A stretch of 34,910 nucleotides of DNA, from the IMG/VR virus record IMGVR_UViG_3300009509_000063, positions 1 to 34,910 of that record. The stretch is one strand, 5' to 3'. Positions 6,788 through 31,231 of the stretch are shown here, piece by piece. The position numbers and the translations under genes were made by a program. Below the pieces are notes generated by a model. That model worked only from the letters and a program-made list of their open reading frames with translations. It did no database searches and was not told the DNA's origin. This DNA comes from a virus. Each line of letters begins with the position of its first letter. Position 1 is the first letter of the stretch.

Positions 6788-7080
6788 GGCTTCTTACTCT
6801 CCAGTTGTACTATGGTTGTCATAACCTTTTGGAGAGAAGCATTCTCAATCTCTCCATCTTCAAGATGAAGGCGCCCCTCAGTTAGTGCTATACGTATGGT
6901 TTCGTGTAGAAGAGCTTGGAGTTTCTTCAACTCCTTGTTACCTCTACGGAATAAAGCATCTGCTAACTTATAGCAAGATGGGCAGACAAAGGTAGCACCA
7001 AAGAACTTAGCTGTATCGGGGCTAACTGATGCATGACAATTCATGCATCTAAGTTCCACCATTCCCTTGGGTTCACCCAT
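6754..7080 (-). CDS. Zinc-ribbon protein, 108 aa
   Basis: A 108-residue protein with CMNC at 12-15 and CPSC at 33-36, forming a four-cysteine ribbon, then a long charged helix (LFRRGNKELKKLQALLHETI) and a second helix near 80-98. The C-terminus ends in a Pro/Thr tail. AAGAGA lies before ATG 7080. The start is 40 bases inside the preceding gene. It resembles the 130-residue ribbon protein in layout (ribbon then helices). No function can be named. Confidence 0.7.
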   Translation of the reverse strand: MGEPKGMVELRCMNCHASVSPDTAKFFGATFVCPSCYKLADALFRRGNKELKKLQALLHETIRIALTEGRLHLEDGEIENASLQKVMTTIVQLESKKPCRPPSNPTTT

Positions 7081-10751: not shown

Positions 10752-11197
10752 ACCTGTCCTCCAAAGATAGCCTCACATACTTTCTGTTGAGTAAGGCGTA
10801 TCCAAGTGTAGTGCAACCACCCAAGAGGTTTACCAGCAGTTATATGGCTGAAATAGTCCAACATCCACTTCTTGACTAGAAACTTGGGGAGGTGCGTAGA
10901 TTCAAAAGGATACCATCTCTTCCATGGGAATCTACAGGCATGAGCAGAATGGAACCACACTTCCTTTCTGTCCCTACTCTCATCCAACTGAACAAGTGAG
11001 ACCCTGGCGTACCCCAGCACAATACCATCTAGTATGAACCAGATAAAGTCCCCCAAGGTAACTCTAAAACCTAGGTCTACGGGTACAAAAACCGGCTCTT
11101 CTGTATTCCACTTGTAGTAGTAGAACCAGCTCTTGGTGTCTCCACCAGCTTGTGGAGCCGGGTCATCCCCCTTCATTCTGTATATAACGTGTGACAT
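10748..11197 (-). CDS. Hypothetical aromatic-rich protein, 149 aa
   Basis: A 149-residue protein rich in Trp, Tyr and Phe. The strand pattern GFRVTLGDFIWFILDGIVLG followed by YARVSLVQLD recalls PUA/EVE/ASCH-type small barrels, in which a GD-I turn leads a hydrophobic strand, but this is a weak visual resemblance. The C-terminal half is helical (LVKKWMLDYFSHITAG). It starts at the endolysin stop (TAATG), so it is coupled to it. Association with lysis is only positional. Confidence 0.66.
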   Translation of the reverse strand: MSHVIYRMKGDDPAPQAGGDTKSWFYYYKWNTEEPVFVPVDLGFRVTLGDFIWFILDGIVLGYARVSLVQLDESRDRKEVWFHSAHACRFPWKRWYPFESTHLPKFLVKKWMLDYFSHITAGKPLGWLHYTWIRLTQQKVCEAIFGGQV

Positions 11198-12039
11198 TAG
11201 AAAAGCAGCTTGACTACCTCAAAGTGCATTCCATCTTTTCTGCTTGAGTAGTGACCACCCCACCAGAACCCTAGCTTGTTAGCTGTCTTCACGAGCTCCC
11301 TAACGCAACCCTTCTTACCAACTAAAGCAGGCTCATGCCCAAGATAGTTCCACTTCATGTTGATGTCAAAAGCGGTGCCGTAAGAGTGGTTGGAGAGTCC
11401 GTTGACATTCTTGGACTGTAAAACGGAACCGCTCTTAACCTTGACACCACGAATGAATCTTGCACAGTAGGAACCATGCCAAGTGAGAATAACTTCACCC
11501 GCTGGATTCACTAGTAGCCCTTTGTCCTGCCAAGCCTTGAAGAGCTTCTGTACTTGCTCAGCTACTCTCTTGTGGAAGGGGAAGGAGCTGTGCTTCCCCG
11601 TGCCCTTAATTCCCTTGAGTTGAGGGATGGGTACCATTACGATGTTCTCTTGGTACCAGTTGTCTAAAACTTGGATAGCTTCCGGGTTGTCCTCTGTTCC
11701 AACCGCTTTAAACCTGAAGGAACCAAAGAGGTCTGTTCTTCCAGTTCTCTCTAGATACATCAAGTCAGGGGGAGGCTCTGGCCATCCTGGACCATACTGG
11801 TCACCAGTCTTATCTTTGACTAGTGGTAATCCTAGGGAGCCAGCCTGGAGGTAGGTTTGTGTACCTACTACCCCGTCAGCCTTCAGATTATACTTACTCT
11901 GAAAGGCCTTGGTGGCTTCAAAGGTTCTCTTACCAAAGTCTCCATCTACGTAGAAGAGATAAAGGTCTCTACCACGTAAAAAGTTCTGCCAGTCTTTAAC
12001 TCTCTCTCCTTTGTCTCCGAGACGTAAAGTAGGTAGCAT
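11197..12039 (-). CDS. Endolysin: peptidoglycan-binding domain plus M15 peptidase
   Basis: A 280-residue lytic enzyme. Residues about 4-67 form a PG_binding_1 domain (LRLGDKGERVKDWQNFL, then DGDFGKRTFEATKAFQ and ADGVVGTQTY). After a linker, residues about 150-275 are an M15 (VanY/D-Ala-D-Ala carboxypeptidase-type) zinc peptidase: LSNHSYGTAFDIN at 215-227 with the ligands H218 and D225, and GMHFE near 270-274 with H272. Such enzymes cut peptidoglycan cross-links at lysis. No signal peptide is seen, so export needs a holin. AGGAG precedes ATG 12039. It heads a minus-strand group separated from the holin-like genes by a large gene and a plus-strand island. Confidence 0.9.
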   Translation of the reverse strand: MLPTLRLGDKGERVKDWQNFLRGRDLYLFYVDGDFGKRTFEATKAFQSKYNLKADGVVGTQTYLQAGSLGLPLVKDKTGDQYGPGWPEPPPDLMYLERTGRTDLFGSFRFKAVGTEDNPEAIQVLDNWYQENIVMVPIPQLKGIKGTGKHSSFPFHKRVAEQVQKLFKAWQDKGLLVNPAGEVILTWHGSYCARFIRGVKVKSGSVLQSKNVNGLSNHSYGTAFDINMKWNYLGHEPALVGKKGCVRELVKTANKLGFWWGGHYSSRKDGMHFEVVKLLF

Positions 12040-12124: not shown

Positions 12125-12988
12125 ATGTACTACGAGGACGCAGATAGGCTCTTAGTTGGAAGATGTAGACATAACAGGAAGTTAGCCCATGAAACGTACC
12201 TGTGGAGAGTAGGTGATGAGAGGACACCCTACTTTCAGTTTGAGATAAGGTACCCAGGTAGAGGAGCTACTCCCATCGTTACCTTCTTTAAGGATGGGAG
12301 AATCAGACTCACACATGATGGGTTCTGCTCTAACACCTTCATGAGAAGAATATATGATTTTACCCCATTCAGACCATGGGTAGAACGAGGGTACTGCTAT
12401 GTCACCACACCAACTGGAGTTAGACCACTACCAGAAAGAATCACACTTACACCCACAGGGCATGTAGCAGAGTTGGGGGAGCTAAATAAAAGAGATGCAT
12501 CAGATGTAAGAAGAGGCGTACACAGATATACAGTGAAGTATGTGAATGCCCTTCTAGCAGGGAGAATTGCAGAAGCAGATAAGTGCGTCGACTGTAAAGC
12601 AATATTAAGAGGGGAGTGGATTTCTATACCGTATAAGGTAGCAGAGGCAAGAACACATCTACTAAATCATATAGAAGACGGATTCTTCCCATCAGATATC
12701 GCTCTACAATCAGTTAAAGAATCAGCAGTTGGAACTTCAATTCTTAGAGGGGAACCAATAGCACACGAAGTGGCAGGTACTCCCCTCACAGATTTAATAT
12801 TCTGTTGGAAGGAAAACCATACCCTTCTTAAGAAGCCAAGGTCCCGAGCAGAGGAGTGTAGAAGAACAGAGAGAATGCTATTCCTACAGAAGAACCCCAA
12901 AGCTCATCCTAGAAGATGGAGAGCTATTTACAAGGTGGATATTGAATCAACACTTCTAGGTCTACTGGGGTTCTTTCATAGGGGCTGA
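12125..12988 (+). CDS. Phage protein of unknown function, 287 aa
   Basis: A 287-residue protein, first gene of the plus-strand island. Residues 1-115 are beta-rich: ETYLWRVGDERTPYFQFEIR, PIVTFFKDGRIRLTHDGF, then YDFTPFRPWV and YCYVTTPTG. This reading resembles a common phage protein of unknown function in which a TFxxDGxIxL strand is followed by a Thr/Arg turn. The second half is helical, with CVDC at about 154-157. No catalytic site is evident. The start is ATG 12125 with no Shine-Dalgarno but a TATAAA just upstream, so the message may be leaderless. Its stop overlaps the next ATG (TGATG). The role is unknown. Confidence 0.7.
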   Translation: MYYEDADRLLVGRCRHNRKLAHETYLWRVGDERTPYFQFEIRYPGRGATPIVTFFKDGRIRLTHDGFCSNTFMRRIYDFTPFRPWVERGYCYVTTPTGVRPLPERITLTPTGHVAELGELNKRDASDVRRGVHRYTVKYVNALLAGRIAEADKCVDCKAILRGEWISIPYKVAEARTHLLNHIEDGFFPSDIALQSVKESAVGTSILRGEPIAHEVAGTPLTDLIFCWKENHTLLKKPRSRAEECRRTERMLFLQKNPKAHPRRWRAIYKVDIESTLLGLLGFFHRG

Positions 12989-13305
12989 TGAAGAAGAAAA
13001 AGATAACGTATCAAATACACATGTTCCCAGCCATCTGGGAGCTTTTCGACAAGTACGTTGAGGTGATAAACTGGAAGTTGAAGGAGAGAGGGCTACCAAA
13101 GAAATTGAAGGGAGAGATACTGGGAGCAGTTCTCTCAGAAGCCCTACTGAGTCATGAGCGAGAAATCCTTGAAGGTCACCGGGCAGCCCAACTTGGGCGT
13201 ATTGGAAGGAGTCTTGCCAAGAGTGGAGGACTTTACCCCGAAATTTCCAAGTCTCTGGGAATTGGTGATGGAAGAGGCGACGGGAGCTCCTCCACCAAAA
13301 AGTGA
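12988..13305 (+). CDS. Putative ribbon-helix-helix-like regulator, 105 aa
   Basis: A 105-residue basic protein. The N-terminus KKKKITYQIHMFPAIWELF reads as a short strand followed by a helix, then a turn (ERGLPKKLKG) and a second helix (EILGAVLSEALLSHEREI). This suits a ribbon-helix-helix-like DNA-binding domain, but the loop is longer than usual. The C-terminus (GIGDGRGDGSSSTKK) is disordered. The last 152 bases also encode the start of the next gene in another frame. It begins at the upstream stop (TGATG). Confidence 0.55.
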   Translation: MKKKKITYQIHMFPAIWELFDKYVEVINWKLKERGLPKKLKGEILGAVLSEALLSHEREILEGHRAAQLGRIGRSLAKSGGLYPEISKSLGIGDGRGDGSSSTKK

Positions 13306-13651
13306 GAAGGGTATCTTCGAGACCTACCTTGGAAGGCTCGACCTCCTTCATCAGGACATGCTGGACCACCCTGAGAAGTATGAGGGCTCACCAACAGTGG
13401 CCCTGGTAGAGAGCCTGGTTCAACGAGGATTCCACAACTTGCCGGACGTCTATGCCGCTGTCAACCCTGAGGAGAAGAGACTCCTGGACCAGGCTACCCT
13501 ATTATGGGCAGCGAAGGCCCCAGAGAAGCCTCCAGAGCCTGTTTCTACAACACCAACGTTGTACAACTCGTCTGTTGTACAACAGCCTTCAGAACCCGTT
13601 CCTACCCCTATGGAGCTTCCAGAGGGTGCAGAGCCCTACTGGTGGCTCTAG
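13154..13651 (+). CDS. Hypothetical protein, 165 aa, start uncertain
   Basis: A 165-residue frame from ATG 13154 that overlaps the preceding gene by 152 bases. An internal ATG at 13268 (residue 39) would reduce the overlap to 38 bases, but neither start has a strong ribosome site. The centre is helical (GRLDLLHQDMLDHPEKYEG, TVALVESLVQRGFHN, PDVYAAVNPEEKRLLDQATL). The C-terminus is Pro-rich and ends PYWWL. Its stop shares the CTAG palindrome with the stop of the convergent 769-residue gene. Not recognised. Confidence 0.58.
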   Translation: MSEKSLKVTGQPNLGVLEGVLPRVEDFTPKFPSLWELVMEEATGAPPPKSEKGIFETYLGRLDLLHQDMLDHPEKYEGSPTVALVESLVQRGFHNLPDVYAAVNPEEKRLLDQATLLWAAKAPEKPPEPVSTTPTLYNSSVVQQPSEPVPTPMELPEGAEPYWWL

Positions 13652-17092: not shown

Positions 17093-17704
17093 TTAGCTAG
17101 AGGTTACTTCAATACTGGCCCGCTTAATTGTGACTGTTCCTGTACTTGCTTTTATCCTCACCTCGTAAAGTTTCTCAGTTGATGGAAAATCTGTGTCTTC
17201 AGTTAAAGCGGCAGACACCTTTTCTGGGGTTGTACTAGTGGAGGAGAGCTCAGACTGGGTTACCTCAGTACTATCAGTGAGATTGTAGAGAAGAGCGTAG
17301 GCTGAACCTGAATCTACCTCTAGTATTGCAAAGAATTTGATTGTAAACCCATCAGGTACTTTAGATGGGTCAAAGGAGAGTACTCCACCCTTCCGGGCAT
17401 AACTTGTAGAAGCAGTGCTCTCTTCTGTACAAATGAGGGGATATTCCCTAGAACTCTGCCATTGATGAAGCTTTACTAAGGATGCCTCCTCCGCTTCTAC
17501 TACATCCTGTAGTGCTTCCCGGTCTGCAGTGAATTGGGCACTCTCACTGATGAGGCTGACTTTGATGTACTCGTCATTGGCTGCGTTTTGGATACAACAC
17601 CAAACGCCATCAGCATCATCAACATGCCACCGCTCAGGCTTTTGACTGATGTCCGCTACAAAGACAGGTGCTGGGCTAATACAGTCACAGGCTACAATAC
17701 TCAT
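17093..17704 (-). CDS. Beta-sandwich virion protein, carbohydrate-binding-like, 203 aa
   Basis: A 203-residue protein. Residues 1-70 are unusual and Cys/Asp-containing (ACDCISPAPVFVADIS). Residues about 110-200 form alternating strands (FTIKFFAILEVDSGSAYALLYNL, LSSTSTTPEKVSAAL, KLYEVRIKASTGTVTIKRAS). This strand set resembles CBM-type beta-sandwich domains seen in phage structural proteins, which bind glycans or pack against fibres. It directly follows three paralogous adhesin genes. A host-surface or virion-decoration role is inferred. Confidence 0.6.
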   Translation of the reverse strand: MSIVACDCISPAPVFVADISQKPERWHVDDADGVWCCIQNAANDEYIKVSLISESAQFTADREALQDVVEAEEASLVKLHQWQSSREYPLICTEESTASTSYARKGGVLSFDPSKVPDGFTIKFFAILEVDSGSAYALLYNLTDSTEVTQSELSSTSTTPEKVSAALTEDTDFPSTEKLYEVRIKASTGTVTIKRASIEVTSS

Positions 17705-17705
17705 G

Positions 17706-18488
17706 TTAAATATTCACTTTCCACAGGCGAAAGCTGGAGCCTGCTTGCATTGCCCATGTCGCGTTGAAAGACATGTTTGTGATGTTTGATGTTGTCTCAT
17801 ACCAGCACCCACCACAGACCATAGCATTGGTTGTTGCTGTAGTAGTACTGCCACTCCCACAGATAGAAGCGTAGGACCGGAAAACTGTGGTGCTGGAAAC
17901 ACTATAACGAGGGTGAAAGATGACAACAATTGTTGTAGCGGAGTATAAACCAGAATCCCCATACCCCGTGCCTACAATTAACCTAGTAGTCTGAGTACCA
18001 CTCCCTTGGGTACCACCATAACTGCGCATGTATACCATGACCTGATTGGAGGTAAGTCCTAACGGTCTAATGGTATAGGTAACCCCAGCTCCCGAATATC
18101 CCTTAATGCGAGCTATGAGTACGTATAGGTCATCAGCAGCACCATTAAGACCTGTCATACTAACAGCTGATGATGCGCTAGTTAGGTCTGTGGAATATTT
18201 AAGCGTCCACAAACCACCTTCCTGTAGGTGTAACAACTCTCTAACAGCACTATCTACATAAACTTTGGGACGACCATTAGTGGTATTCATCCCAATGGAG
18301 TCTGGGTCTGTAGGAGTACCATCAGAGGTCCACTGGACCAGATTATTTTGCAGATAGAGAGTATTAGAACCAGCTTGTAGTTTATTAAGACGACCACAAA
18401 GTAAACAGCTCTTTGTAGTGTGCCACGGAGGCCACCAAAGGTGCTTCCCCTCTTTGCAAGGCTTGTGAACAAGGTCGAGAAGGCTCAT
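17706..18488 (-). CDS. Adhesin-like paralogue 1 with N-terminal Cys/His knuckle, 260 aa
   Basis: A 260-residue protein in a tandem family of three. The N-terminus has C11, H16, H23 and CLLC (28-31) around the shared core WPPWH, a probable single zinc knuckle. A beta-sandwich follows: a WTLKYSTDLTSAS strand, MTGLNG turn, DDLYVLIARIKGY, IRPLG, and the end TNMSFNATWAMQAGSSFRLW. The C-terminal ending is common in phage tail tips. It overlaps the preceding copy by 4 bases (ATGA). The knuckle may fold or dock the protein on a fibre or particle, and the sandwich may bind host surface. Function is inferred from layout and context. Confidence 0.72.
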   Translation of the reverse strand: MSLLDLVHKPCKEGKHLWWPPWHTTKSCLLCGRLNKLQAGSNTLYLQNNLVQWTSDGTPTDPDSIGMNTTNGRPKVYVDSAVRELLHLQEGGLWTLKYSTDLTSASSAVSMTGLNGAADDLYVLIARIKGYSGAGVTYTIRPLGLTSNQVMVYMRSYGGTQGSGTQTTRLIVGTGYGDSGLYSATTIVVIFHPRYSVSSTTVFRSYASICGSGSTTTATTNAMVCGGCWYETTSNITNMSFNATWAMQAGSSFRLWKVNI

Positions 18489-19285
18489 GTCCCATTCTCA
18501 ACTTTCCACAAGCGAAAGCTTGTACCAGCCTGCATTGCCCAGGTTGAGACAAATAGGAAACTAGTGATATTTGTAGATGTCTCCGCCCAAGCTCCACCAC
18601 TGATGATAGCGTAAGTGCCCGTAACATCACTAGGAGCTCCACCAGCTACTGATACATACGACCTATAGACTGTGTTACCTCCAATACTATAACTGGGGTG
18701 GAAGACCACCATGATAGTTTCAGTAACATTTTGACCAGCTACAGCAAAGCTGGCGCCAACAACCATGCCACCAGCCGCAGCAGAACCTACTGAACCATTA
18801 GCTGACACTAGATAAGTGCAGGTCTGGTTTGTAGCTATACTATTGGGTCGTATATAGTATGTTGTTGTTTGTCCAGGGTATCCTTTGATTCGGGCAATCA
18901 GTACGTATAGGTCATCAGTGTTTCCACTACAACCTGTAATATTCTGGGTAGTAGAAGCACTTGTAAGGTCTGTGGAGAAGACTTGTCTCCACAACCCATT
19001 CTCTTCTGTATGAGCTAAAGGACGGGACATCCAACTGGAATTATGCTCTATGTAGGCATGAGCATACCCAGTAGAAGTATCCATACCCAGCCGACCAGCG
19101 CTGGTTGCAGATGCGGTAGTACTCCACTTAAGTAGATTACTATCTATAGTAAGTGTCTTATCACCAACGGGTAGCCTATTATAACACCCACATAGAACAC
19201 ATCGCTTAGCAGTATGCCAAGGAGGCCAGAAAACGTGGCGCCCCTTGTCACAGTTGCTATGGATTATGCTAGATAGGCTTTTCAT
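18485..19285 (-). CDS. Adhesin-like paralogue 2 with N-terminal Cys/His knuckle, 266 aa
   Basis: The second of three tandem copies, 266 residues. The knuckle reads C12, H17, H24, C29, C32 and C34, around RHVFWPPWHTAKRCVLCG. The body keeps WRQVFSTDLTSAS, DDLYVLIARIKGYPG, YIRPNSIATNQTCTYL and the ending FVSTWAMQAGTSFRLWKV. It differs from the others mainly in residues 60-90 (a longer insert) and in the loop region 160-200. Such variation between stable ends is what is expected of paralogues with different binding surfaces. Coupled to both neighbours by 4-base overlaps. Confidence 0.72.
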   Translation of the reverse strand: MKSLSSIIHSNCDKGRHVFWPPWHTAKRCVLCGCYNRLPVGDKTLTIDSNLLKWSTTASATSAGRLGMDTSTGYAHAYIEHNSSWMSRPLAHTEENGLWRQVFSTDLTSASTTQNITGCSGNTDDLYVLIARIKGYPGQTTTYYIRPNSIATNQTCTYLVSANGSVGSAAAGGMVVGASFAVAGQNVTETIMVVFHPSYSIGGNTVYRSYVSVAGGAPSDVTGTYAIISGGAWAETSTNITSFLFVSTWAMQAGTSFRLWKVENGT

Positions 19286-20064
19286 CCGTTCTCTATCCTA
19301 TACATACGGAAGCTTGACCCTATCTGCATAGACCAGGTGCTATAAAAGGTGATGGAGGTCATGTTAGTGCTGGGGTCTGCCCATGCTCCTCCATACAAAG
19401 ATACGTAGGTTCCTGTCACTGATTGAGAGCTACCACCACAAAACGAGAAGTACGAACGGAATACTGTCGTTCCCCCCGTACTATAGCTGCTATGTAACAC
19501 GATGAAGAATGTGAGTGTTACATTCTCTCCTGCAACAGCTTGAGCTCTTCCTACTTCAAGAATAGTTGCAGTTCCTGACCCCCAAACATTGTTAGCATTC
19601 CTTACATAGGTGCACCGCTGATTGGCAACGAATCCATTTGGCCGGAGTGAGTATGTAGCAGCACCACCAGCATAGCCCTTCACTCGTGCTATAATTACGT
19701 ACAACTCATCGGAGTTACCGTTTAACCCCGACATGTTAACGGACATGGTAGCACTAGTTAAATCGGTGGAGTAGATAAGGGTCCAGATGCCACTCTCACC
19801 TAAGTATGCCAAGGGGTGTACACCTCCGTTGACATATACGCGGGGTCTCCCTAGAGACCTATCTAATCCTAGTTCACCTTCAACAGTGGGAGAGCTGCTA
19901 GTACTCCATGTAAGCAGTTGATTAGCAAGTGTTACTGATTGTGGACCAACATGAAGTTGGTCAAAACAACCACAAAGTAAACATCGCTTACTACGATGCC
20001 ATGGAGGCCAGAAGACGTGCTTGCCTTGGTGGCAGCCTTTATGAAGGACGCCTAGAAGACTCAC
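19282..20064 (-). CDS. Adhesin-like paralogue 3 with N-terminal Cys/His knuckle, 260 aa
   Basis: The third copy, 260 residues, and the first transcribed after the 784-residue fibre. Knuckle: C11, H16, H23, C28, C31 (GKHVFWPPWHRSKRCLLCG). It is closest in its first residues and MSGLNG turn to copy 1 (both begin MSLL). The body has WTLIYSTDLTSAT, DELYVIIARVKGY, LRPNGFVANQRCTY and the end FYSTWSMQIGSSFRMYRI. The start is GTG 20064 behind GGGGGTG, two bases from the fibre stop, so it is translated with the fibre. Three intact copies argue for use rather than decay. Confidence 0.72.
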   Translation of the reverse strand: MSLLGVLHKGCHQGKHVFWPPWHRSKRCLLCGCFDQLHVGPQSVTLANQLLTWSTSSSPTVEGELGLDRSLGRPRVYVNGGVHPLAYLGESGIWTLIYSTDLTSATMSVNMSGLNGNSDELYVIIARVKGYAGGAATYSLRPNGFVANQRCTYVRNANNVWGSGTATILEVGRAQAVAGENVTLTFFIVLHSSYSTGGTTVFRSYFSFCGGSSQSVTGTYVSLYGGAWADPSTNMTSITFYSTWSMQIGSSFRMYRIENG

Positions 20065-20066
20065 GA

Positions 20067-22421
20067 TTACACCCCCAGCTTCTGCTCGAGGGCTTCTAAT
20101 CGTAGCCTTAACTTAGCGTTCTCTTGCTTTAGCTCTTCTAATTGGTTGAACTCTCCACAATTAGTGTGAGCTGGAACTGTTCGTAGGATTTGAACACCAT
20201 TCTCATCAGCTCCATGCTTGTGGACATAGAGTTCCAAGGAGTCACCAAGAGCTAGCGCTTTCCCACACTTGGGGCAGTGGGTATCAGTGAAGGCAGTGTC
20301 ATCCTGCACCAAGGTATGAGCATACACCGTATTGAAGTACCCACGGAACCATCTGGTAGCATTAAGTCCGATGTACCCCTCATCATCCGCTCTAGGCACA
20401 ACATCAGGAGAATTATTGTTAGCTGCATTTCGAAAGACTACACGGCCCATATTGCCGTCGTTCACTTTGTCCCCTAAAATGAAGGTGACATCACCACCAT
20501 TCCCTGGGGCGGTGGCTGACCCACCTTCAGCAGCGCTACCTGTAGTAATTGTTACGTATGCCCCGTTAGAAACACCTGTTCCCTCTGCAGCTGAGGAACC
20601 ACAAGTTAACAGAATATTTCCTCCACCAGCAGCTGAAGGCCCAGTTGCCTGGGCGTCACCATCACCAGAGGTAATTCGGACAGTTCCACCATCACTACCA
20701 TAAATACCGGAACCGGAAACAGACCCACTTCCAGAGTACAACCATAACTCTCCCCCGATGGTTTGAGTCGTACTAGTAGGCCCTGCCCATCCAGCCCAAA
20801 TTGTTAGCCTATAACCGTTTGTATTAGCTGCTGCTGCTGCAACAACATGGGAACAGTTTTGGCCAACTCCAGCTACATCATTGACCCAACACTCATCCCA
20901 AACATGGGTGCTATCTCCAAGTGTGCCGGTGTTAGTCACTACTGGAAGAATGTTACAGGCAGCTGTAGACCCTCCATTAGAGATAATGATATCCCCATCT
21001 GAGCCACCACTACCTGTACCCGTCTTCAGGTAGATGTTTCCACCGTTATTGGTACCGTCACCACCCTCTAGGATAAGACTACCACCATTAGAAGCAGCAT
21101 CCGATGTATCCTGTGCTGAGATATAGAAGTTTTCTCCGGCACCACTACTGGTACTAGCCTGGTAGATAGATGGGGAAGAGACCGCGTCATCGAAAGAGAA
21201 AGAGGTTCCATTGATATAGGCGATACCTGACCCACCTACAGCAAAGATAATGGAGCCATCTGTTGAGTTACCGTCTCCACCAGCTAATACCAGCGCACCA
21301 CCAGTACCTGTTACGTGCGAACTATCCTGAGCTTTGATAGTCAGATTTTCGGCTGTGGCTGCTGTAGTACTAGCCTGGTAAATCTGTGGAGCAGCTACAG
21401 AGTCATCAAAGGAGAAAGAGTCATCGTTAATATATGCAATTGCGTTCGCGCCAGAGGCAAAAACAACTGAACCAGCTAAAGCAGCAGTTGGACCAGCACC
21501 AGAAGCTAAAACCAGATTGCCACCAGTTTGACCAGCGTCCGAAGTAGTTTGAGCAGATATACCTAGATTCTCACCACTACCTGAGCTCGTGCTGAATTGG
21601 TAAATGCGTGGTGCAGATATACTGGGGTAGAAGTAAAGTGATGTGTCGTCAACGACGGCTGTTGGATTTCCAGCTGGAGCAAAGTAGATAAGACCATCAG
21701 TCGTACTACCAGAACCAGACTTTAACCAGACACCACCACCTGTACCAGAGGAGCCATCACCCCCTTGTAGAGTGGCATGACCACCAGCTCCGACTGTACT
21801 ACTCTGCGCCTTTACAGTGAGGCTCTCTCCAGCCCCACTATCGGTCTCGTCTGCTTGGGTTATTAGGGGAGTTGCAACTGCAGTGTCGAAGTAGAGGGAG
21901 TCACCGTCCATCCATAGGACAGCAGTTGACCCTGATAGAAGACCAACTCTTCCGTCAGTACCTCCACCACCACCAGAAGCTAGCAGAAGGTCTCCACCTG
22001 TCCCAGAAGAGGATGCGCCTCCATGTAACTCTAGAACTCCACCATCAGAGGCAGTACTTCCTTGGGCGTAGATGATAAGGGTAGCTCCAGCACCAGCATG
22101 TTCATCTTGGTAGATATACGGGCCAGTATGGGCCTCATTGAAGATGATGTTGTTGCCACTCCCCGCGATGGTCAGGTCCCCACCACTTATATCTAGACCT
22201 GCACCGGCATCTACGTTACCACCAAAAGTAACTTGGGCTGAACCCAGCTGCGTCAGTGTTTTGCCGGATGCTATTACAACCCCAGCCCCGTCTGGCGTTA
22301 GAGTTAAGCTGTTACTACTACCAGACGGGGTGAGGATTCCATCTCCAACAATGAGGGCGTCAGCATCCGCTAGTTGCTTAACTGACCCGCCTTGAATTGT
22401 CAGTGGCTTTGCGTCCGACAT
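20067..22421 (-). CDS. Tail fibre with five tandem repeats and C-terminal Cys/His plus coiled coil, 784 aa
   Basis: A 784-residue Gly/Ser-rich beta fibre. N-terminus PLTIQGGSVKQLADADALI is shared in pattern with the other fibre. Residues 101-492 are five repeats of about 72-86 residues with the core IYQ-GAGENL-IxAQ-GGDG-SFSFDD. A turn motif follows (NTGTLGDSTHVWDECWV, then DDEGYIGLNATRWFRGYF), typical of fibre tails before an S74-type domain. In place of that domain there is a Cys/His cluster (CPKC at 716-719, H734, H736, C755) and a leucine coiled coil (757-784). The fibre probably trimerises. Its tip would face the three adhesin-like proteins encoded next. Confidence 0.8.
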   Translation of the reverse strand: MSDAKPLTIQGGSVKQLADADALIVGDGILTPSGSSNSLTLTPDGAGVVIASGKTLTQLGSAQVTFGGNVDAGAGLDISGGDLTIAGSGNNIIFNEAHTGPYIYQDEHAGAGATLIIYAQGSTASDGGVLELHGGASSSGTGGDLLLASGGGGGTDGRVGLLSGSTAVLWMDGDSLYFDTAVATPLITQADETDSGAGESLTVKAQSSTVGAGGHATLQGGDGSSGTGGGVWLKSGSGSTTDGLIYFAPAGNPTAVVDDTSLYFYPSISAPRIYQFSTSSGSGENLGISAQTTSDAGQTGGNLVLASGAGPTAALAGSVVFASGANAIAYINDDSFSFDDSVAAPQIYQASTTAATAENLTIKAQDSSHVTGTGGALVLAGGDGNSTDGSIIFAVGGSGIAYINGTSFSFDDAVSSPSIYQASTSSGAGENFYISAQDTSDAASNGGSLILEGGDGTNNGGNIYLKTGTGSGGSDGDIIISNGGSTAACNILPVVTNTGTLGDSTHVWDECWVNDVAGVGQNCSHVVAAAAANTNGYRLTIWAGWAGPTSTTQTIGGELWLYSGSGSVSGSGIYGSDGGTVRITSGDGDAQATGPSAAGGGNILLTCGSSAAEGTGVSNGAYVTITTGSAAEGGSATAPGNGGDVTFILGDKVNDGNMGRVVFRNAANNNSPDVVPRADDEGYIGLNATRWFRGYFNTVYAHTLVQDDTAFTDTHCPKCGKALALGDSLELYVHKHGADENGVQILRTVPAHTNCGEFNQLEELKQENAKLRLRLEALEQKLGV
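20946..22121 (-). repeat. Five in-frame tandem repeats in fibre gene
   Basis: Protein-level repeats at residues 101-184, 185-270, 271-344, 345-416 and 417-492 of the 784-residue fibre. Each starts near P-x-IYQ, has AQ and GG(D/A)G blocks and ends near SFSFDD or SLYFD. They are diverged in sequence, so they are best seen in translation. They presumably form beta-roll units along the fibre shaft, with length variable by recombination. Confidence 0.75.
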
Positions 22422-22447
22422 GTTGTTCCCATGCGGTTAGCATCGAC

Positions 22448-22819
22448 TTAGTTCGTTTTGGAGAGTTCCTTCTTAGCCAAGTCGATATTCCACCTGCCGC
22501 CCAGGTTGTCAGGGTCAAGTCCATGAGCTCTAGCGGTGGTACGCATGGTCTCAGACATTGCTTCAGAACGAGCCCCTATCAACTGAACGAGCTGGGCCTT
22601 CCTAAGAGTTAGGTTGGCCAATTCCAGCTTCATCTGAGTGATTTCTCTATCCTGCTTCATGAGCAAGTCACACTCAGTGTCAGCCAACTGAATTACAGCT
22701 GGGTTCTCCTTCTTTACTTCTGCTGGAGCTGTAAGTTCCGGCTGTGCAACTGGGGCAGTTGGTTGGTCTGACATGGTGCCCTGGCTGTTGCCCTTACCTT
22801 TTCTGTTACGTCTACTCAT
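22448..22819 (-). CDS. Hypothetical coiled-coil protein, 123 aa
   Basis: A 123-residue protein from ATG 22819 (MSRRNRKGKGNSQG). This start has AGAGGTGG at good spacing; the longer frame from TTG 22861 would translate the ribosome-site repeat itself. The N-terminal 50 residues are basic then Pro/Ala-rich. A central coiled coil follows (LMKQDREITQMKLELANLTL), and the end carries GLDPDNLGGRWNIDLAKKE. It lies between the two fibre genes with a structured leader upstream, so it may be highly expressed. A virion assembly or fibre-related chaperone is possible, but not shown. Confidence 0.66.
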   Translation of the reverse strand: MSRRNRKGKGNSQGTMSDQPTAPVAQPELTAPAEVKKENPAVIQLADTECDLLMKQDREITQMKLELANLTLRKAQLVQLIGARSEAMSETMRTTARAHGLDPDNLGGRWNIDLAKKELSKTN

Positions 22820-22822
22820 GAT

Positions 22823-22847
22823 TCCACCTCTTTTGTCCACCTCTTTT
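22823..22847 (-). promoter_or_regulatory. Duplicated Shine-Dalgarno sequence
   Basis: Two exact 12-base copies of AAAAGAGGTGGA (minus strand), 13 bases apart (22834-22823 and 22847-22836), precede ATG 22819. Only the inner copy is at proper spacing. The shared ACAAAAGAGGTG also precedes the lysine-rich protein gene at 10432. It could be a strong late-type leader with a standby ribosome site. Confidence 0.55.
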
Positions 22848-22867
22848 ATGTATGTGGTCAAACGACC

Positions 22868-22922
22868 GCACGGCAGGGAGGTAAGAGGTGGGACACCTCA
22901 CCTACCGTGCAGTCATCTTATA
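22868..22922 (-). promoter_or_regulatory. Imperfect hairpin in gap, with possible promoter upstream
   Basis: Bases 22868-22910 form an imperfect inverted repeat: outer arms GCACGG/CCGTGC, then AGG-type inner pairs, and an AGGTG-GGA-CACCT core. On the minus strand TATAAG (22922-22917) lies about seven bases upstream of the hairpin, so a transcript starting there would begin with it, as a 5' stem-loop. Alternatively it is a weak terminator or processing site for the 947-residue fibre, since no U-tract follows. Confidence 0.4.
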
Positions 22923-22932
22923 CCGCTAGGGC

Positions 22933-25776
22933 TCAGAGCTCAATCGGTCTGTAAGGCCGGAAGAGCATTTTAACTGTGCCACCAGCTCCGGTACCGGCAG
23001 CCATCGCGATTCCCACCTCAGCTACGACATCACCAGCCGAGGACGGGGCAACGTTGGTTACCGTACCAGCAGTTGTCTTGGACAGATACAATCTGTCTAG
23101 AGCTGCAATTGTGATGCTTGCTTCAATGTTGGCAGCAGCAATTACACCAACAATTGTTGCCTCGTCTTCACTAGCATCTTCAGCAACACCAAAGACCCAA
23201 GCTGTGGAGATAGCAGTTGCTATAGCCTGGTCGAGTCTGTTGGCTGCATCTAGATAACCAAGGTCACCATCGAGGAGAACATTGGTAGTAGTATCAACTG
23301 CAACGGTTGTAGCAGAAGAAGCGTGGGTGTGAAGAGCATCTGCATTGCTACCGTTTAGAAGGGTATCAATGTTAGTTGCTGTGAAGTTGGCTGTGGTTAG
23401 AGCGGTACCATTGATGTAGAAGTCGGTTCCGTCAGGAACATCCAACTGACCATCACTAGCGTCCACCATAAGGCTGGCACCACCAAGGGTCATGGTGTTC
23501 GTGCTGGTATTTACAGTAATCCAGCTAGCCCCACCAGTGTCATCTAGAGTGAAGGCTGTAGCATAAGCATCAGCCATCGATATGTTGATGGCCTGGCTTG
23601 CATTCATCTCTAGGTCGAAGGTGCCTGTTGGGTCCAAGTCGATGTTGGTACCAGAGAAGGTAAGTGCTCCACCTGTTACTGTAAGAGCAGCAGATGCTGT
23701 CAGTGCTGCACCCGTAACGTCTAGACCGGCTTCTGCATCGAAGTTTACAGCAGAGCTAACAGAGGTAGCACCGGTACCAATTACCAGGTCATCATTTACC
23801 CCATCGAACCAGATGCTGGTTTGCTCTGCAACACCACTACCAGAGTTGAAGTATAGATAAGCATCTATACCACTGGAATCCTGTCCTGTGGTTCCAATGG
23901 CAACCTTGGCATCATCGGCAGAGCCAGCAGTTGTAACACTGTACTCCAGAATTGGGTCGCCTACTGTATCACAGTTAAGTGTCCAGTACCCCTTGATGAG
24001 GTTGGTGCCATCACCACCCCAAACACTCATGTAGACTGTAGAGGCTGTATCTGTAGTGTCAGCATCGTTGTTGACAGTCCAGCTCAGTTCTGGAGTACCA
24101 CTACCAGGACTACCACTCACCCCAATGGCACCCCATGTGCTATTGGAGTACATCTGCATCTGAGAGGTGCTGGTGTTGTAGATAATCATACCGTTGGTGG
24201 CGGTAAGAGCATCTCTTTGAGCAGTGGTTAATTGGGCCATCTGCGGAGCGTAGGCAGTTCCTGTTCCAAGAACTAATGAGCTCGTAGATGTTGCAATAGC
24301 TGCACCACCAACAGTCAGTGTACCCGTAACGTCTAAGCCGGCATTTGCATCTACGTTACCGGCGAAGGTAACCTGACCACCCGTGGTTTGCGTAATAGCC
24401 TGGTTTGCAATAGTTAGAGCACCACCAGTGATATCCACACCACCAGATGCATCGAGATTGACTGGGACACTTACAGATGTGGCGCCTGTACCGACTGTTA
24501 GTACATCTGTTCCGCCTGCATAGAATATAGAGGCATAGGTAGCGTTACCTGAACCATCAGTACCTGTGAGGCGTATCTGAGCTGTAAGGTTTCCCGTCTC
24601 AGCAGAAGCATCAGATTTACCAACGGAGATAATGGCGCTATCTAATGCAGCATCATCTGTTACGTAGTACTCAAGAGTAGGTGGGTCAGCAGTGCAATTT
24701 AACTTCCAATGCCCAATAAATTGCGACGTGCCATCACCCGCATAGAGCACTAACTGAGTATCATAATCTGTAGTGCTGTTATCTGTATTAACATGCCAGT
24801 CATTTCCAGTGGTGCCAGTTGAGCTCTTGCTCATATACTCTTGCCAGCCACCGTCCGCATAGAACCTGAAGACATCACCTTGGGAGTCATAGTTAATCAT
24901 CCCATTGGTGGCATAGTCTATATATGCAGGGTCTAGAGGGGCAACTACTAGACAGCTACCAGTACCAGAGCCTGTACCCTCATGACCAATTACAACAGCC
25001 TCACCATCAGTTAGGCTCTTGATAACACCATTAGTAGTAAGGTCACCGGTTGTACCATCAACTAACCAGTCAGCACCTACAGCTAGGTCAACAGCTGCAG
25101 CAACAGTTAGATTGGCGCCAGAGACATCCAGACCCGCGTTGGCATCTAGATTTCCACCGAAGTCAGCCTGACCTGTTCCAAAGTTCCAGGTTGGGTTACC
25201 TGTAGCAGTTATAGCTCCAGTACCCTTGAAGTCTGTAGTGGAGGTCTCGGCACTGTTACCAAGCTCAATAGCACTGGTATGGGCAGCACCAATCTTGACG
25301 ATACCTTCTTCAGTACCATCACCAGCATCGAGCTCGAGGTTACCACCAGCAGCGCCATTACCTAGACCAGCTGCGATTGTGAGGTTACCACCAGCTGTTG
25401 CAGCTGTTGTGGAATCTCCCACATCCATCCGATGGTTGGCCTCTTTCTTGAACTCGAAGTCATAGGTGCTGGCATCCCAAGCAGCCTGCATGGTCACGAT
25501 ATCAGTTCTGGCATCACCGAACTGGATGGTGTCGCCAACAAACTGAGTCGTACCGCTTACGAGCTCGTTACCATCAACTGTTAGGTTACCCTTGACAGTT
25601 GTGTGAATACTTGCAGAGCCAAGCTCTACAGAGGTAGCAGTACCTCCAGAGGGAGCTAGGATTAGTGCTCCTGCTGCGGCTAGGTCTAGACCACCTGATT
25701 GCAGTAGGAGAACATCGCCGGATTGAAGTTGTTTGGTTGAACCAGATTGAATTACTAGGGGCAGTGAACTTGCCAT
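22933..25776 (-). CDS. Long tail fibre, 947 aa
   Basis: A 947-residue Gly/Ala/Thr/Asp-rich beta fibre. N-terminus PLVIQSGSTKQLQSGDVLL; shaft repeats of GNLTVDGN and NVDANAGLDVTG type. Two long duplicated modules lie at residues 288-452 and 525-690, each beginning TNGMI(N/I)Y and ending with GTGATSV and (V/I)TG, as in sequences seen in many tail fibres. The C-terminal part holds a helix (LDQAIATAISTAWV) and a common ending (LYLSKTTAGTVTNVAP ... LFRPYRPI). It likely assembles as a trimer on the tail or baseplate and contacts the host surface. TAGGAG precedes ATG 25776. No S74 chaperone domain is seen. Confidence 0.85.
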   Translation of the reverse strand: MASSLPLVIQSGSTKQLQSGDVLLLQSGGLDLAAAGALILAPSGGTATSVELGSASIHTTVKGNLTVDGNELVSGTTQFVGDTIQFGDARTDIVTMQAAWDASTYDFEFKKEANHRMDVGDSTTAATAGGNLTIAAGLGNGAAGGNLELDAGDGTEEGIVKIGAAHTSAIELGNSAETSTTDFKGTGAITATGNPTWNFGTGQADFGGNLDANAGLDVSGANLTVAAAVDLAVGADWLVDGTTGDLTTNGVIKSLTDGEAVVIGHEGTGSGTGSCLVVAPLDPAYIDYATNGMINYDSQGDVFRFYADGGWQEYMSKSSTGTTGNDWHVNTDNSTTDYDTQLVLYAGDGTSQFIGHWKLNCTADPPTLEYYVTDDAALDSAIISVGKSDASAETGNLTAQIRLTGTDGSGNATYASIFYAGGTDVLTVGTGATSVSVPVNLDASGGVDITGGALTIANQAITQTTGGQVTFAGNVDANAGLDVTGTLTVGGAAIATSTSSLVLGTGTAYAPQMAQLTTAQRDALTATNGMIIYNTSTSQMQMYSNSTWGAIGVSGSPGSGTPELSWTVNNDADTTDTASTVYMSVWGGDGTNLIKGYWTLNCDTVGDPILEYSVTTAGSADDAKVAIGTTGQDSSGIDAYLYFNSGSGVAEQTSIWFDGVNDDLVIGTGATSVSSAVNFDAEAGLDVTGAALTASAALTVTGGALTFSGTNIDLDPTGTFDLEMNASQAINISMADAYATAFTLDDTGGASWITVNTSTNTMTLGGASLMVDASDGQLDVPDGTDFYINGTALTTANFTATNIDTLLNGSNADALHTHASSATTVAVDTTTNVLLDGDLGYLDAANRLDQAIATAISTAWVFGVAEDASEDEATIVGVIAAANIEASITIAALDRLYLSKTTAGTVTNVAPSSAGDVVAEVGIAMAAGTGAGGTVKMLFRPYRPIEL
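23707..24915 (-). repeat. Two duplicated modules in fibre gene
   Basis: Residues 288-452 (24915-24421) and 525-690 (24204-23707) of the 947-residue fibre share a series: TNGMI, a WxVN block, GDGT followed by a WxLNC block, LEYxVT, then GTGATSV and a VNxDA-type end. They are diverged copies visible in translation, spaced 237 residues apart. This is internal duplication within a tail fibre. Confidence 0.6.
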
Positions 25777-25797
25777 TTTACTCTCCTAAGAACTAAC

Positions 25798-26031
25798 TCA
25801 GGTGGTTAGTTTTGAATCATTGGCACAGTGACGGTTTTCTCTGGTTTCAGTAATGTCACCGATGCTCTCATTTAGTGCAAACCCATTTTCTTGGTCTGCA
25901 GCATCAACGGTTTGCACCGTACCATCCTTCTTGTGAAGTTTGATACGTTTGATGGGAACAGTTATTTTGGAACCGTTAATTCTAATCGGTACCTCTATTC
26001 CCCCATCAGTGGCCCATTTATATACGGTCAT
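25798..26031 (-). CDS. Hypothetical small protein, 77 aa
   Basis: A 77-residue protein with a beta-rich first half (GGIEVPIRINGSKITVPIKR, IKLHKKDG) and a flexible acidic C-terminus. AAGGAAGG precedes ATG 26031. It is the last small gene before the fibre, following two small structural proteins, and may be a minor virion component. No family recognised. Confidence 0.62.
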   Translation of the reverse strand: MTVYKWATDGGIEVPIRINGSKITVPIKRIKLHKKDGTVQTVDAADQENGFALNESIGDITETRENRHCANDSKLTT

Positions 26032-26041
26032 AGTGCCTTCC

Positions 26042-26524
26042 TTACATGACGACGAAGTCTCGGTCTACCATCACAACCAAGACGCTTGAGCTCTTGGCAA
26101 ATCCCACCCTTTGTTGAATCTCACCGGGTGCCGTAGGAGGAGTAGGTGTTATAGTCGTTCCCGATACACCCGTAATACTAAGATAGTAGGTCTGTCCCGC
26201 AGTTAAACCAGAGAACCCACCTAACTCTCCATAGAACTGTACTTCTGCATTCCCCGCAGCTGGGTAAGGTGGGTTAACTGATTTAACTAAACCTATTACT
26301 GGTTGTGTGCCTGAGCCATTAGCATCTGCTAAAGCAACAGTACTGTCAGCAGAGAGATAAACGGCATCTCCTGCGTTAATCCCACCAGCGTGAAGAAAGG
26401 TTCCAGTGGGATTAATTCCAGAGCTACCAGAAGGAGGGGCTGCTATCCAGTTTCGTCCGTCATACTGGACAATATCACCGACACTGGGGGTGCCATCGTG
26501 AGTTAGCTGCTTTAGCTTCGGCAT
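26042..26524 (-). CDS. Small structural protein, 160 aa
   Basis: A 160-residue beta-rich protein (INAGDAVYLSADSTVALADA, PVIGLVKSV, AEVQFYGELGG, GQTYYLSITG, ITPTPPTAPGEIQQRVGFAK). This pattern, a set of short strands with a GFAKSS ending, is common in phage virion or decoration proteins. N-terminal residues VGDIVQYDGRNWIAAP form an extra motif also found in fibre-type proteins. Position directly behind the tube gene group supports a structural role. Which part of the virion it belongs to is unknown. Confidence 0.66.
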   Translation of the reverse strand: MPKLKQLTHDGTPSVGDIVQYDGRNWIAAPPSGSSGINPTGTFLHAGGINAGDAVYLSADSTVALADANGSGTQPVIGLVKSVNPPYPAAGNAEVQFYGELGGFSGLTAGQTYYLSITGVSGTTITPTPPTAPGEIQQRVGFAKSSSVLVVMVDRDFVVM

Positions 26525-27736: not shown

Positions 27737-30700
27737 TCAGATGACGAGGGTCACCCGGATGTAATTACAGGGGTACGGTACGTCTAGGGTGATATCCACT
27801 AAGACGGTGTCTGGTGCATCCTCATCTTGGATGATGTTGTTCAAGTCCGAGCCCAAGAGCACTCCCAGATTTTCTAGGAAGCCTAGAACACCCTGGATAA
27901 CATTACCCAAGGTATCCATGAAACCAGCAGTGATGTTAAATCTACCGATGAAGTTACGCAGACTTCTCCGCATGAGCTTCGAGGTATAGTCAACCACCTT
28001 GGTGATGGAGTCTGTTCTCGTTTCGATAGAGGTAACGTTGGTGGTTAGAGCATGTCTAGAGAAGAGTGGTGTATCCTGCCCCTCCTGAATAACTAACCAG
28101 TTACCACCGCCAGCGATGACATTCATCTGACGCTCAGAGAAGTAGTCGTTGGACCCCATCACCTGAGTGAATCCAGTCATCGGCAGATTTGTGAAGCTCT
28201 GCTGAGGTGGGTATTGACCAATCATTCCAGAGATGGCTGCACACATGTAGAAGCCATCAATAACTTGCTCGATTCCACCTACTGTAGAAACGCACTGGTC
28301 TGGAATAATCTGCCAGACACGACGGTCACCGTAACCTGCACCCATTTGGTTGTAAGTTTCAGCAACCGCTGTCTTATCGGGTGTACCATCTGTGTTTTCT
28401 AGAACTGCTCCTCTTATCTTAATAGAGAAGGTCTCGCTGATAAGAGTAGATGGCAGAGGTGGGTCGTTTAGAGCACTGGTTGCGTAGTAGTTGTCGTCAT
28501 TCTCTCCAGGAGCAAAATCAGACGAGCTTGTTCTAACCGTCACAACCGAGCCAGTAACACTCTTCACACTGTAGCTCTTGCCATCACTAGCGATGTCTAA
28601 GAAGACACCATCATCTACTGGAAGAGTACCGGTTGGGTCGATATCTTCTAGTAGAAGCAGAGCTCCCAGATTTGCTACCTTGGTATCGAACTGGGTACCA
28701 GTAACACCAGAACTATCTCCGTCTGTACCAGAAGCTACAAGGCTGTCTACAGCTCTAGAGGGCATCTCCGGGTTGATGAGAACAATGCGCTCACCTCTAT
28801 ACTCAGGCTCGCTCATGACACCAACGTGTGCCTGGAAGACCTGGAACACTTCCACATCATGAGTGAGAAGGGCGATGGCATAAACCTCATATGCTTCTAG
28901 GAACTCAGCAGCCCGTGTGAAGGCTTCAGTTGTTCCGTTGGGCTGGTCAGCACTCACTGCATCCACACCCAGGCCAGTAACCTGTACACCTGGGGCGTTG
29001 ATGAGTGCAAAGTACATACCCAGAGCTAGAGGGTTATCCGTAGAGATGGGGCTCAGCTGGTCAGTAAGCTGGGTAGTGTCATCTAATGTTAGAAGACCAG
29101 CATCAGCTGCCAAAGGAGACACATCCTGTCTGATGGCGTTGTAGGCCATATAGATGGGTCTATCTGCCACGATGACAGCACCCCGAGTATCCCTGATGAG
29201 GTTAGCCTTGATGTTAACCACACCCTCATTGTCCACAACCAATTCAGGAGCTGGACGGTTGGTGTCAGGTAGGTCTTTGGCGATGATGAAGAAGCTCTCA
29301 CCCAGAGATGCGTCAATTGGTATTTGAGAGTCAATCTTCAGCACATCCGTCTGACCACCTGGGGCCACCTCGGTAATTAACCCCAGAAGAACCCCATCTA
29401 TCCAAAGAGCATCACCAGCAAGGGCACCACCCAAGGAACCAACGTACAATCCCTCGGTGAGACCAAGGTCGGCTACAGCTGTTCCACCCACAATTCTGAT
29501 GGAAGCATCAGAGCCCACAACTGGTGCTGTGGAGAGGATGAGCTCGTTATTACCACCGAATGAAGCAGAGATAAGACCAGCAGGAGCACCAACAATAGCC
29601 TCAATCTGGTCGATGATATCTGTGTTTGTGGCTGGATTCTGTGGGGCAGCAAACGTGATTGTCTGAGGGAGACCACCATCACTAAGAATTAGTGTCTTTC
29701 CGTCAAGAGTTCCGCCTGCACCTGGAGTAAGTGTGTCTAAATCAACAGTACCAGTTACTTCAGCTGCAACAGCTGCTGCAGTAAAGTCCTCGTTAACTGC
29801 CTTGACCAAAGGTGTAACAGCATCTCCATTTCCATCATCGATGGCTGCGAGTACTGCCTCACCATATGTAGTAGTAGCGGTTAACCCCAGGGCTGTAAGA
29901 ACAGTGCTGGTTGGGTCTAGCTCAATGGAGGCTGCATCACCAAGTGTGGGGGTAGTTAACACTAGGTAGTTACTACCCATGACTGTTGCTACAAGGTCAT
30001 ACCCAATAGCGGAAGCCTGAATCTTGGTGTTAATCTCCGCTATGATTGCACCTACTGTAGCCAGTGGGCCTACTAGAGTTAGCGAAAGTGGAGTAGCTCC
30101 ATTCACGCCTACAACTAGAGTGCCACCACCCCAGGGAAGGAGAGTGGCAAGGTCTACTGTGCCTACTACCTGTGCAGGAGTTTCTGGTCCACCAACTGCA
30201 AACTCTGGGACTCCAGTAACTATCTCCAGACCGAGGTCTGCAATAGCTCCACCAGTGTCACCCACAATTTGTACAGAAGAGCCTGGACCTTGAGTGATGG
30301 AGGTTAATACCAGCTGATTGCTGATATCCATCGAGGCAATCAGACCAGTTGTCTGGTCGTTAATCCGGTCCAGGACATCTGATGCTGATGTAGGAGCTAC
30401 AGGGGTAGAGAAGGTAACTGTCTGTGGAGCAGCTGCGTCTGTGGAGATAACAAGTGTATCTCCATCCACTGTTCCACCACCACCATAGGTCAGTGTGGTG
30501 AGGTCTACAGTTCCTACAATTTGAGCCGCATAGTCATCTGCACTTCTGCGAAGGAAGGCTTCATCTCGCAGAGCCTCCTTCATAGCCGTCCCACCTAGAG
30601 CCATGAAGATTCTTATTGTTCCATTCTCAGGAACAATTTCATCTAGATTTCCCCGTGGGTCTGGGAAGCTGCTAGGTGTAATCTGCAAACCATACTGCTG

Positions 30701-31231
30701 GTAAGAACCAACACCGGTATAGGTGTAACCAGCATTCAGGTCGAAGGCGCTTAGTACAGCTGGGTCTGTAGAAGCATCGATATAAATAGTCTGGAACTCA
30801 CCGACACCAATACTTCTCATGCGCCAGCGGGTGTCCCCTACAGTTTCTGCAGTGGCTGCAGTAACCCCAGCAGCAGTGAATGCATCCCTAATCTGAGAGA
30901 CTACGGAGGATGGAGGTAGTCCTGCAAGCGTTGGGTCGCTGAATGGGATGGTCACAAGAGGACCATTATTTAACGACACAACTAGGGACTTACCCTCCAA
31001 ACCGGAGTACACACCACCAGGAGCATCTGGAGCTTCGAAGAGGGCCGGAAGAGTGATAAGTGCATCAGGGTTTAGGATGGTATTACCAGCACTATCGGTC
31101 TCGTAAACCTCAATGATTTCACGAGCTACACCCACGATGTTAGGAACAAGTGTAGGTGTAATAATCGTCGGGGAAACAGACCGAAAAACCTGGACTACCT
31201 GTACTCCAGGGCGCGGAATCTCAGTTGCCAT
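27737..31231 (-). CDS. Tail sheath protein with inserted repeat domains, 1164 aa
   Basis: A 1164-residue protein, nearly twice the size of the T4 sheath (about 660). The N-terminus PRPGVQVVQVFRSVSPTI resembles the sheath start, and residues 860-1164 hold the sheath C-terminus (VVDYTSKLMRRSLRNFIGRF, then LDVPYPCNYIRVTL). The sheath sits outside the tube and contracts to inject DNA. Between the ends are four related domains: about 77-168 (least similar), 238-335, 355-450 and 491-591. Each runs VGTVDL..GGTL..TLVIS..PQTVTF..I..IN..LVLT..GSSV.I..LGL. These resemble flagellar hook-IN type or Ig-like units. AAGGAG precedes ATG 31231. Confidence 0.87.
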   Translation of the reverse strand: MATEIPRPGVQVVQVFRSVSPTIITPTLVPNIVGVAREIIEVYETDSAGNTILNPDALITLPALFEAPDAPGGVYSGLEGKSLVVSLNNGPLVTIPFSDPTLAGLPPSSVVSQIRDAFTAAGVTAATAETVGDTRWRMRSIGVGEFQTIYIDASTDPAVLSAFDLNAGYTYTGVGSYQQYGLQITPSSFPDPRGNLDEIVPENGTIRIFMALGGTAMKEALRDEAFLRRSADDYAAQIVGTVDLTTLTYGGGGTVDGDTLVISTDAAAPQTVTFSTPVAPTSASDVLDRINDQTTGLIASMDISNQLVLTSITQGPGSSVQIVGDTGGAIADLGLEIVTGVPEFAVGGPETPAQVVGTVDLATLLPWGGGTLVVGVNGATPLSLTLVGPLATVGAIIAEINTKIQASAIGYDLVATVMGSNYLVLTTPTLGDAASIELDPTSTVLTALGLTATTTYGEAVLAAIDDGNGDAVTPLVKAVNEDFTAAAVAAEVTGTVDLDTLTPGAGGTLDGKTLILSDGGLPQTITFAAPQNPATNTDIIDQIEAIVGAPAGLISASFGGNNELILSTAPVVGSDASIRIVGGTAVADLGLTEGLYVGSLGGALAGDALWIDGVLLGLITEVAPGGQTDVLKIDSQIPIDASLGESFFIIAKDLPDTNRPAPELVVDNEGVVNIKANLIRDTRGAVIVADRPIYMAYNAIRQDVSPLAADAGLLTLDDTTQLTDQLSPISTDNPLALGMYFALINAPGVQVTGLGVDAVSADQPNGTTEAFTRAAEFLEAYEVYAIALLTHDVEVFQVFQAHVGVMSEPEYRGERIVLINPEMPSRAVDSLVASGTDGDSSGVTGTQFDTKVANLGALLLLEDIDPTGTLPVDDGVFLDIASDGKSYSVKSVTGSVVTVRTSSSDFAPGENDDNYYATSALNDPPLPSTLISETFSIKIRGAVLENTDGTPDKTAVAETYNQMGAGYGDRRVWQIIPDQCVSTVGGIEQVIDGFYMCAAISGMIGQYPPQQSFTNLPMTGFTQVMGSNDYFSERQMNVIAGGGNWLVIQEGQDTPLFSRHALTTNVTSIETRTDSITKVVDYTSKLMRRSLRNFIGRFNITAGFMDTLGNVIQGVLGFLENLGVLLGSDLNNIIQDEDAPDTVLVDITLDVPYPCNYIRVTLVI
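29459..31003 (-). repeat. Four domain-sized repeats within the sheath gene
   Basis: Residues 77-168 (31003-30728) and, more clearly, 238-335, 355-450 and 491-591 of the sheath. The clear copies share VGTVDL-xTL-GGGTL, then a QT(V/I)TF-type strand, IxxIN, LxLT and LGL. They differ in sequence, so they are old duplications. Likely surface-exposed decorations on the sheath. Confidence 0.7.

Follow-up and report, generated by a model that had tools for sequence, protein, structure and literature searches.

Three tandem putative receptor-binding tips with a common N-terminal Cys/His module in a fibre cassette of a contractile-tailed phage

Phages often encode receptor-binding tips behind the fibre gene, an example being gp38 of T-even phages, whose specificity resides in glycine-rich motifs. 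In marine phages, genes for C1q-domain proteins found beside tail fibres are considered likely to encode receptor-binding proteins; their N-terminus is conserved, while the C1q domain is hypervariable and much less effective than the N-terminal part at recruiting reads from metagenomes (Mizuno et al. 2014, PMC3909814). C1q-like putative receptor-binding proteins are also recurrent in the variable islands of cryoconite phages (PMC7468147), and in the myocyanophage Pam3 the fibre protein gp24 forms a trimer and recognises its receptor through a TNF-like domain (PMC9608196, PDB 7YPX). Because these C1q/TNF-like phage proteins are receptor binders encoded near fibres (PMC3909814, PMC7468147, PMC9608196), the role proposed below for a set of three phage proteins, here called tips, is precedented.

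The window analysed (34,910 bases) spans the whole of one IMG/VR virus record, and the tips are encoded by three consecutive genes on its minus strand, arranged in the order tipA, tipB, tipC; their number, coordinates and lengths (260, 266 and 260 aa) are exactly those given in a preliminary description of this DNA. TipA (19282..20064, minus strand, 260 aa, GTG start) consists of a Cys/His module (residues 1-32), a fibre-like linker (33-93) and a predicted jelly-roll head (94-260), an architecture shared by tipB (18485..19285, minus strand, 266 aa) and tipC (17706..18488, minus strand, 260 aa). The proteins are 45-51% identical in pairs, and with BLASTP E values of 1e-83 to 1e-101 their similarity is not due to chance; the common C-terminal SFRLW/SFRMY ending remarked upon earlier is real in the translations. 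Whole-protein dN among the three lies at 0.44-0.51 while dS is saturated or above 2, and all three copies are therefore kept under purifying selection. TipA starts 2 nt past the stop of a 784-residue fibre-like gene, tipB overlaps tipA and tipC overlaps tipB by 4 nt (ATGA) each, and a further gene, for a protein of 203 aa (p203), begins 1 nt beyond tipC. Because of these overlaps and short gaps, the block running from the fibre through the tips to p203 looks translationally coupled. The 3' ends of tipA (19282-19300) and tipB (18485-18505) encode ENG or ENGT through the DNA motif GAGAAYGG, which could double as a ribosome-binding site for the tip gene that follows; the end of tipC is without it. 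Promoter-like sites were fewer than in shuffled sequences, and no promoter is inferred.

The reading we consider likely is that the three proteins are receptor-binding tips that can be swapped, sharing one N-terminal Cys/His dock and differing in their jelly-roll heads, and that they are carried in an exchangeable fibre cassette of a large contractile-tailed phage. The part most peculiar to them is the N-terminal module, which in tipA occupies 19969..20043 on the minus strand (residues 8-32: C11, H16, WPPWH23, C28 and C31) and has equivalents in tipB and tipC, following the common pattern C-x4-H-x2-WPPWH-x4-C-x2-CG. The preliminary description had all three proteins begin with Cys...GKH, WPPWH and CxxCG, which holds apart from the GKH, since tipB has GRH instead. 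In the alignment, C11, H16, W19, P20, P21, W22, H23, C28, C31 and G32 (numbering of tipA and tipC) are invariant in three of three tips, whereas cysteines outside the module differ between copies. When this 25-residue knuckle is compared with the rest of the protein, it comes out ahead as the most conserved region: 56% of its columns are invariant, whereas the linker 33-93 reaches 17% (Fisher, p=0.0005) and the beta-sandwich 35% (p=0.049), in a comparison of three sequences. The CxxCG spacing is typical of zinc ribbons and knuckles, and with all five candidate ligands (C11, H16, H23, C28 and C31) invariant among three paralogues, for which the databases searched gave no sequence-level homologue, folding of the module around zinc is plausible and stands slightly better than an even chance. 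The N-termini gave no zinc-family match in Pfam, and AlphaFold predicted no fold for the module, either within the full-length protein or alone, where it also folded poorly (pLDDT 32-45 in these models). CxxC pairs occur in other proteins of the window as well (2124-2876, 2836-3339, 4152-4544, 6754-7080 and p301, within 32510-33415), and zinc-type modules seem to be common in this phage.

Relatives of the tips were sought widely. Neither Pfam nor PHROGs gave a match, and tblastn against INPHARED phages returned none for tipA at E 1, for tipC at E 10 or for the 784-aa protein at E 0.1; a search for related loci seeded with the three aligned tips brought up none in either IMG/VR or GTDB genomes. 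The search of viral genomes for the WPPWH knuckle that the preliminary description had proposed was run with DNA patterns and gave zero viral matches. The viral matches listed for a looser WPPW-CxxCG pattern appear, once translated, to be reading frames that arose by chance, none showing the C-x4-H start, and 49 genome matches to a WPPWH-CxxCG pattern likewise look like chance and lack that start; a sequence search of solved structures with the tips gave chance hits only. Among related virus records, several of them fragments, the tips match 0 of 21, a set that contains no positive control, and the 784-aa fibre matches 0 of 20. Neither the Cys/His dock nor the triplet was thus found elsewhere in the databases searched, while both the heads and their position are precedented. 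The earlier statement that no described system resembles this one stands, as far as was searched, for the knuckle and the triplet but not in general, C1q/TNF-like receptor-binding proteins beside phage tail fibres being well described.

The C-terminal beta-sandwich reported earlier is borne out by structure prediction. TipA and tipC were modelled with AlphaFold2 from the three-sequence alignment, and although the full tip model reached a mean pLDDT of 54, the head (94-260) was modelled clearly better, all-beta with 10-residue blocks at pLDDT 43-88. Foldseek searches of BFVD with the C-terminal ~165 residues gave 125 matches at E<=1e-3, the best at 8e-12 with probability 1.00, mostly to uncharacterised phage proteins, several of which have 170-200 aa and comprise little beyond the jelly-roll domain. 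In the models, the C-terminal ~150-170 residues thus form a two-sheet jelly-roll domain held in common with other phage proteins. The same search against the PDB gave no head match at E<=1e-3. In VIA-align, the C-terminal domain of Pgp3 ranked near the top (Z 9.4, rmsd 3.0 over 107 residues), along with the lectins PLTL (Z 7.5) and BC2L-C (7.4) and EDA-A1 (7.3), at rmsd 2.5-3.0, and galectins and legume lectins came next at Z 6.9-7.8; Z values of 7-9 are near the usual background of this method, so that a TNF-like and a galectin- or legume-lectin-like jelly roll are not firmly separated. The domains concerned in Pgp3, BC2L-C, PLTL and EDA are TNF-like. The safest statement is that the predicted tip head is a phage jelly roll, and it is probably TNF/C1q-like. 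The variable loops of the preliminary description were not recovered, invariant residues being found at 40 of 105 predicted-strand and 19 of 61 predicted-loop positions, which shows no clear contrast with only three sequences.

Judged by length and place, the BFVD match O80217 of the phage psiM2 (206 aa) is ORF27, whose gene closes the tail block and immediately precedes the lysin gene peiP. The ORF27 proteins of psiM2 and psiM100 are nearly identical over their N-terminal ~34 residues and have diverged in their heads, which suggests, by analogy, the same logic of fixed dock and variable head as in the tips. A profile alignment places tip residues 91-155 in register with the psiM2 and psiM100 heads at 27% identity, a weak match (probability 1%, E 0.05) based on tiny alignments. 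The ORF27 proteins thus resemble the tips in head fold (through psiM2 in BFVD) and in combining a near-identical N-terminus with a divergent head, but differ in being single copies with another N-terminal dock that lacks the Cys/His module, and their annotated function is unknown.

The other known systems share different features with the tips. The marine-phage C1q proteins have, by fold, a jelly roll of the TNF/C1q kind, a conserved N-terminus with a variable head, and a fibre-adjacent gene in a variable genomic island, although the part of that account available reports neither a Cys/His N-terminal module nor a tandem triplet, and the likeness drawn here is one of fold and position (PMC3909814). 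Pam3 gp24 is also a short protein of a fibre, in which the N-terminus docks and a TNF-like domain binds the receptor, yet its dock is an alpha-helical bundle, its tip is rich in glycine, a Tfa-like chaperone goes with it, and it is not described as part of a triplet; it was absent among the fold matches listed for the tip head. Like the tips, gp38 of T-even phages and S16 is a small protein encoded directly after the fibre gene, and it caps the fibre, but the tips carry a jelly-roll head in place of the glycine-rich motifs. Membership of the tips in the gp38-type family of glycine-rich adhesins was rejected, since none of the three translations shows such motifs in a run, and of the analogy drawn earlier with gp38, position and role remain while the family does not.

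The tip genes belong to a fibre/tip cassette of ~9.4 kb (17093..26524, minus strand), which contains two small genes, two genes for fibre-like proteins of 947 and 784 aa, a 137-aa protein, the three tips and p203. The 947-aa protein (22933..25776, minus strand) is a repetitive, fibre-like structural protein, and between the two fibre genes lies that of the coiled-coil-rich 137-aa protein (22448..22861, minus strand), possibly an assembly factor. The 784-aa protein (20067..22421, minus strand) is likewise repetitive, and it is from this repetitiveness rather than from homology that we infer a tail fibre, with its position making it the probable carrier of the tips. Its end (20067-20378), for which no relative was found by sequence, bears a zinc-ribbon-like CPKCG...HTNC with cysteines 716, 719 and 755, sub-threshold zinc-ribbon matches and a leucine-rich coiled coil, so that the presumed joint between fibre and tip has Cys/His-rich termini on either side. 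P203 (17093..17704, minus strand, 203 aa), directly after tipC, has a Cys-rich N-terminus (CDC...WCC), a helical stretch and a beta-rich C-terminus, and may be a fourth, different tip. Weak Pfam matches among the neighbours (CBM_5_12, Phage_cement_2 and Replitron_C) fell below the cut-off and were disregarded.

The phage is contractile-tailed, as it encodes a tail sheath of 1164 aa (27737..31231, minus strand), which has relatives in Arash, D181 and phage G and a C-terminus that matches phrog_279. A search with the sheath alignment recovered 25 IMG/VR loci on contigs of up to 192 kb, 13 of the 25 being 51-68% identical in the C-terminal domain. The best-matching relative, L130, conserves the gene order on both sides of the cassette, with p301, p315, the sheath, p249 (76%) and p130 followed, 8 bp on, by counterparts of p105 and p769 (weak similarity), and synteny continues beyond the p769 counterpart through a downstream block up to a dNMP kinase and a 401-aa protein. 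The 9.4 kb of the window thus correspond to 8 bp between the flanking tail genes of L130, and L131, L133 and further relatives likewise show no such cassette at the corresponding place. The cassette is extra relative to its syntenic relatives, whether by gain in the lineage of the window or by loss in the others, both of which are possible, and the tip genes are, as are those of C1q-like receptor-binding proteins, fibre-adjacent in a variable region.

Fold match, synteny and published precedent (PMC3909814 and PMC9608196) together support two proposals of the preliminary description, namely that receptor-binding tips are encoded after a fibre gene and that their divergent heads share one N-terminal dock. 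In the proposed mechanism, the Cys/His module (8-32), probably folded around a zinc ion, would be the common virion dock of the three tips, and its most likely target would be the end of the upstream 784-aa fibre, with its own Cys/His ribbon and coiled coil; docking onto this fibre has roughly even odds. Residues 33-93 would form a short, fibre-like beta linker between dock and head, and the heads (94-260), which are probably trimeric, would by their divergence confer several host-surface specificities on each particle, the whole set being part of an exchangeable fibre cassette.

Other readings of the triplet concern the way in which the chains are used. Chains A, B and C might build one heterotrimeric head resembling complement C1q instead of three homotrimers, with a 1:1:1 ratio set by the dock they have in common and by coupled translation at equal rates. 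The ATGA overlaps, purifying selection on all three genes and the TNF/C1q-like head agree with such a heterotrimer, which nonetheless appears quite improbable, as Pam3 gp24, a tip of TNF-like fold, is a homotrimer (PMC9608196) and separate specificities predict tandem paralogy equally well. A variant in which zinc-coordinated docking between Cys/His modules on the fibre end and on three interchangeable tips yields mixed or heterotrimeric C1q-like heads, and with them combinatorial host recognition on each particle, is a long shot of much the same order. That a single copy is in use and the others form a recombination reservoir for changes of specificity seems very unlikely; although short DNA blocks are repeated among the copies (105 nt at 64-70% and 44 nt at 64-84% identity), the three genes are complete, overlap, show no frame damage and are under purifying selection, and frequent homologous exchange would call for a higher DNA identity than they have.

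The dock itself can also be read differently. The Cys/His module might bind no metal, forming disulphides or merely a hydrophobic WPPW plug, a somewhat unlikely reading that draws on the missing predicted fold and zinc-finger family match and on the variation of cysteines outside the module, against which stand the five C/H residues invariant in all three paralogues, their knuckle-typical CxxCG spacing and the CxxC pairs in other proteins of the window. Attachment elsewhere on the virion is possible because the cassette, which follows the sheath gene, adjoins the putative gene for the tail tube, and the probable tape-measure gene of L130, together with other large structural genes, is found ~10-35 kb further on. 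The tips could thus decorate head, neck or sheath as surface fibres holding the phage to surfaces or glycans, instead of sitting at the ends of baseplate tail fibres; this is unlikely, given that they directly follow a long fibre-like gene and that the published C1q/TNF-like relatives with data are receptor binders associated with tail fibres.

If the favoured reading of three swappable tips is true, three receptor-binding heads are displayed through one shared, possibly metal-dependent dock, which would be a simple, naturally modular way of achieving multivalent host recognition and would offer a clean test of whether phage tips swap at a metal-organised joint. The cassette is at the same time a concrete case of host-recognition genes being gained or lost as a block in uncultured phages with contigs of up to ~190 kb. 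Elsewhere in the window, the gene at 11197-12039 encodes an endolysin with a peptidoglycan-binding domain and an M15 peptidase, to which none of the L130 genes examined between syntenic neighbours corresponds, and a small group of plus-strand genes (12125-13651) interrupts an otherwise minus-strand block; for two of them, L130 and L133 have counterparts that keep this relative orientation.
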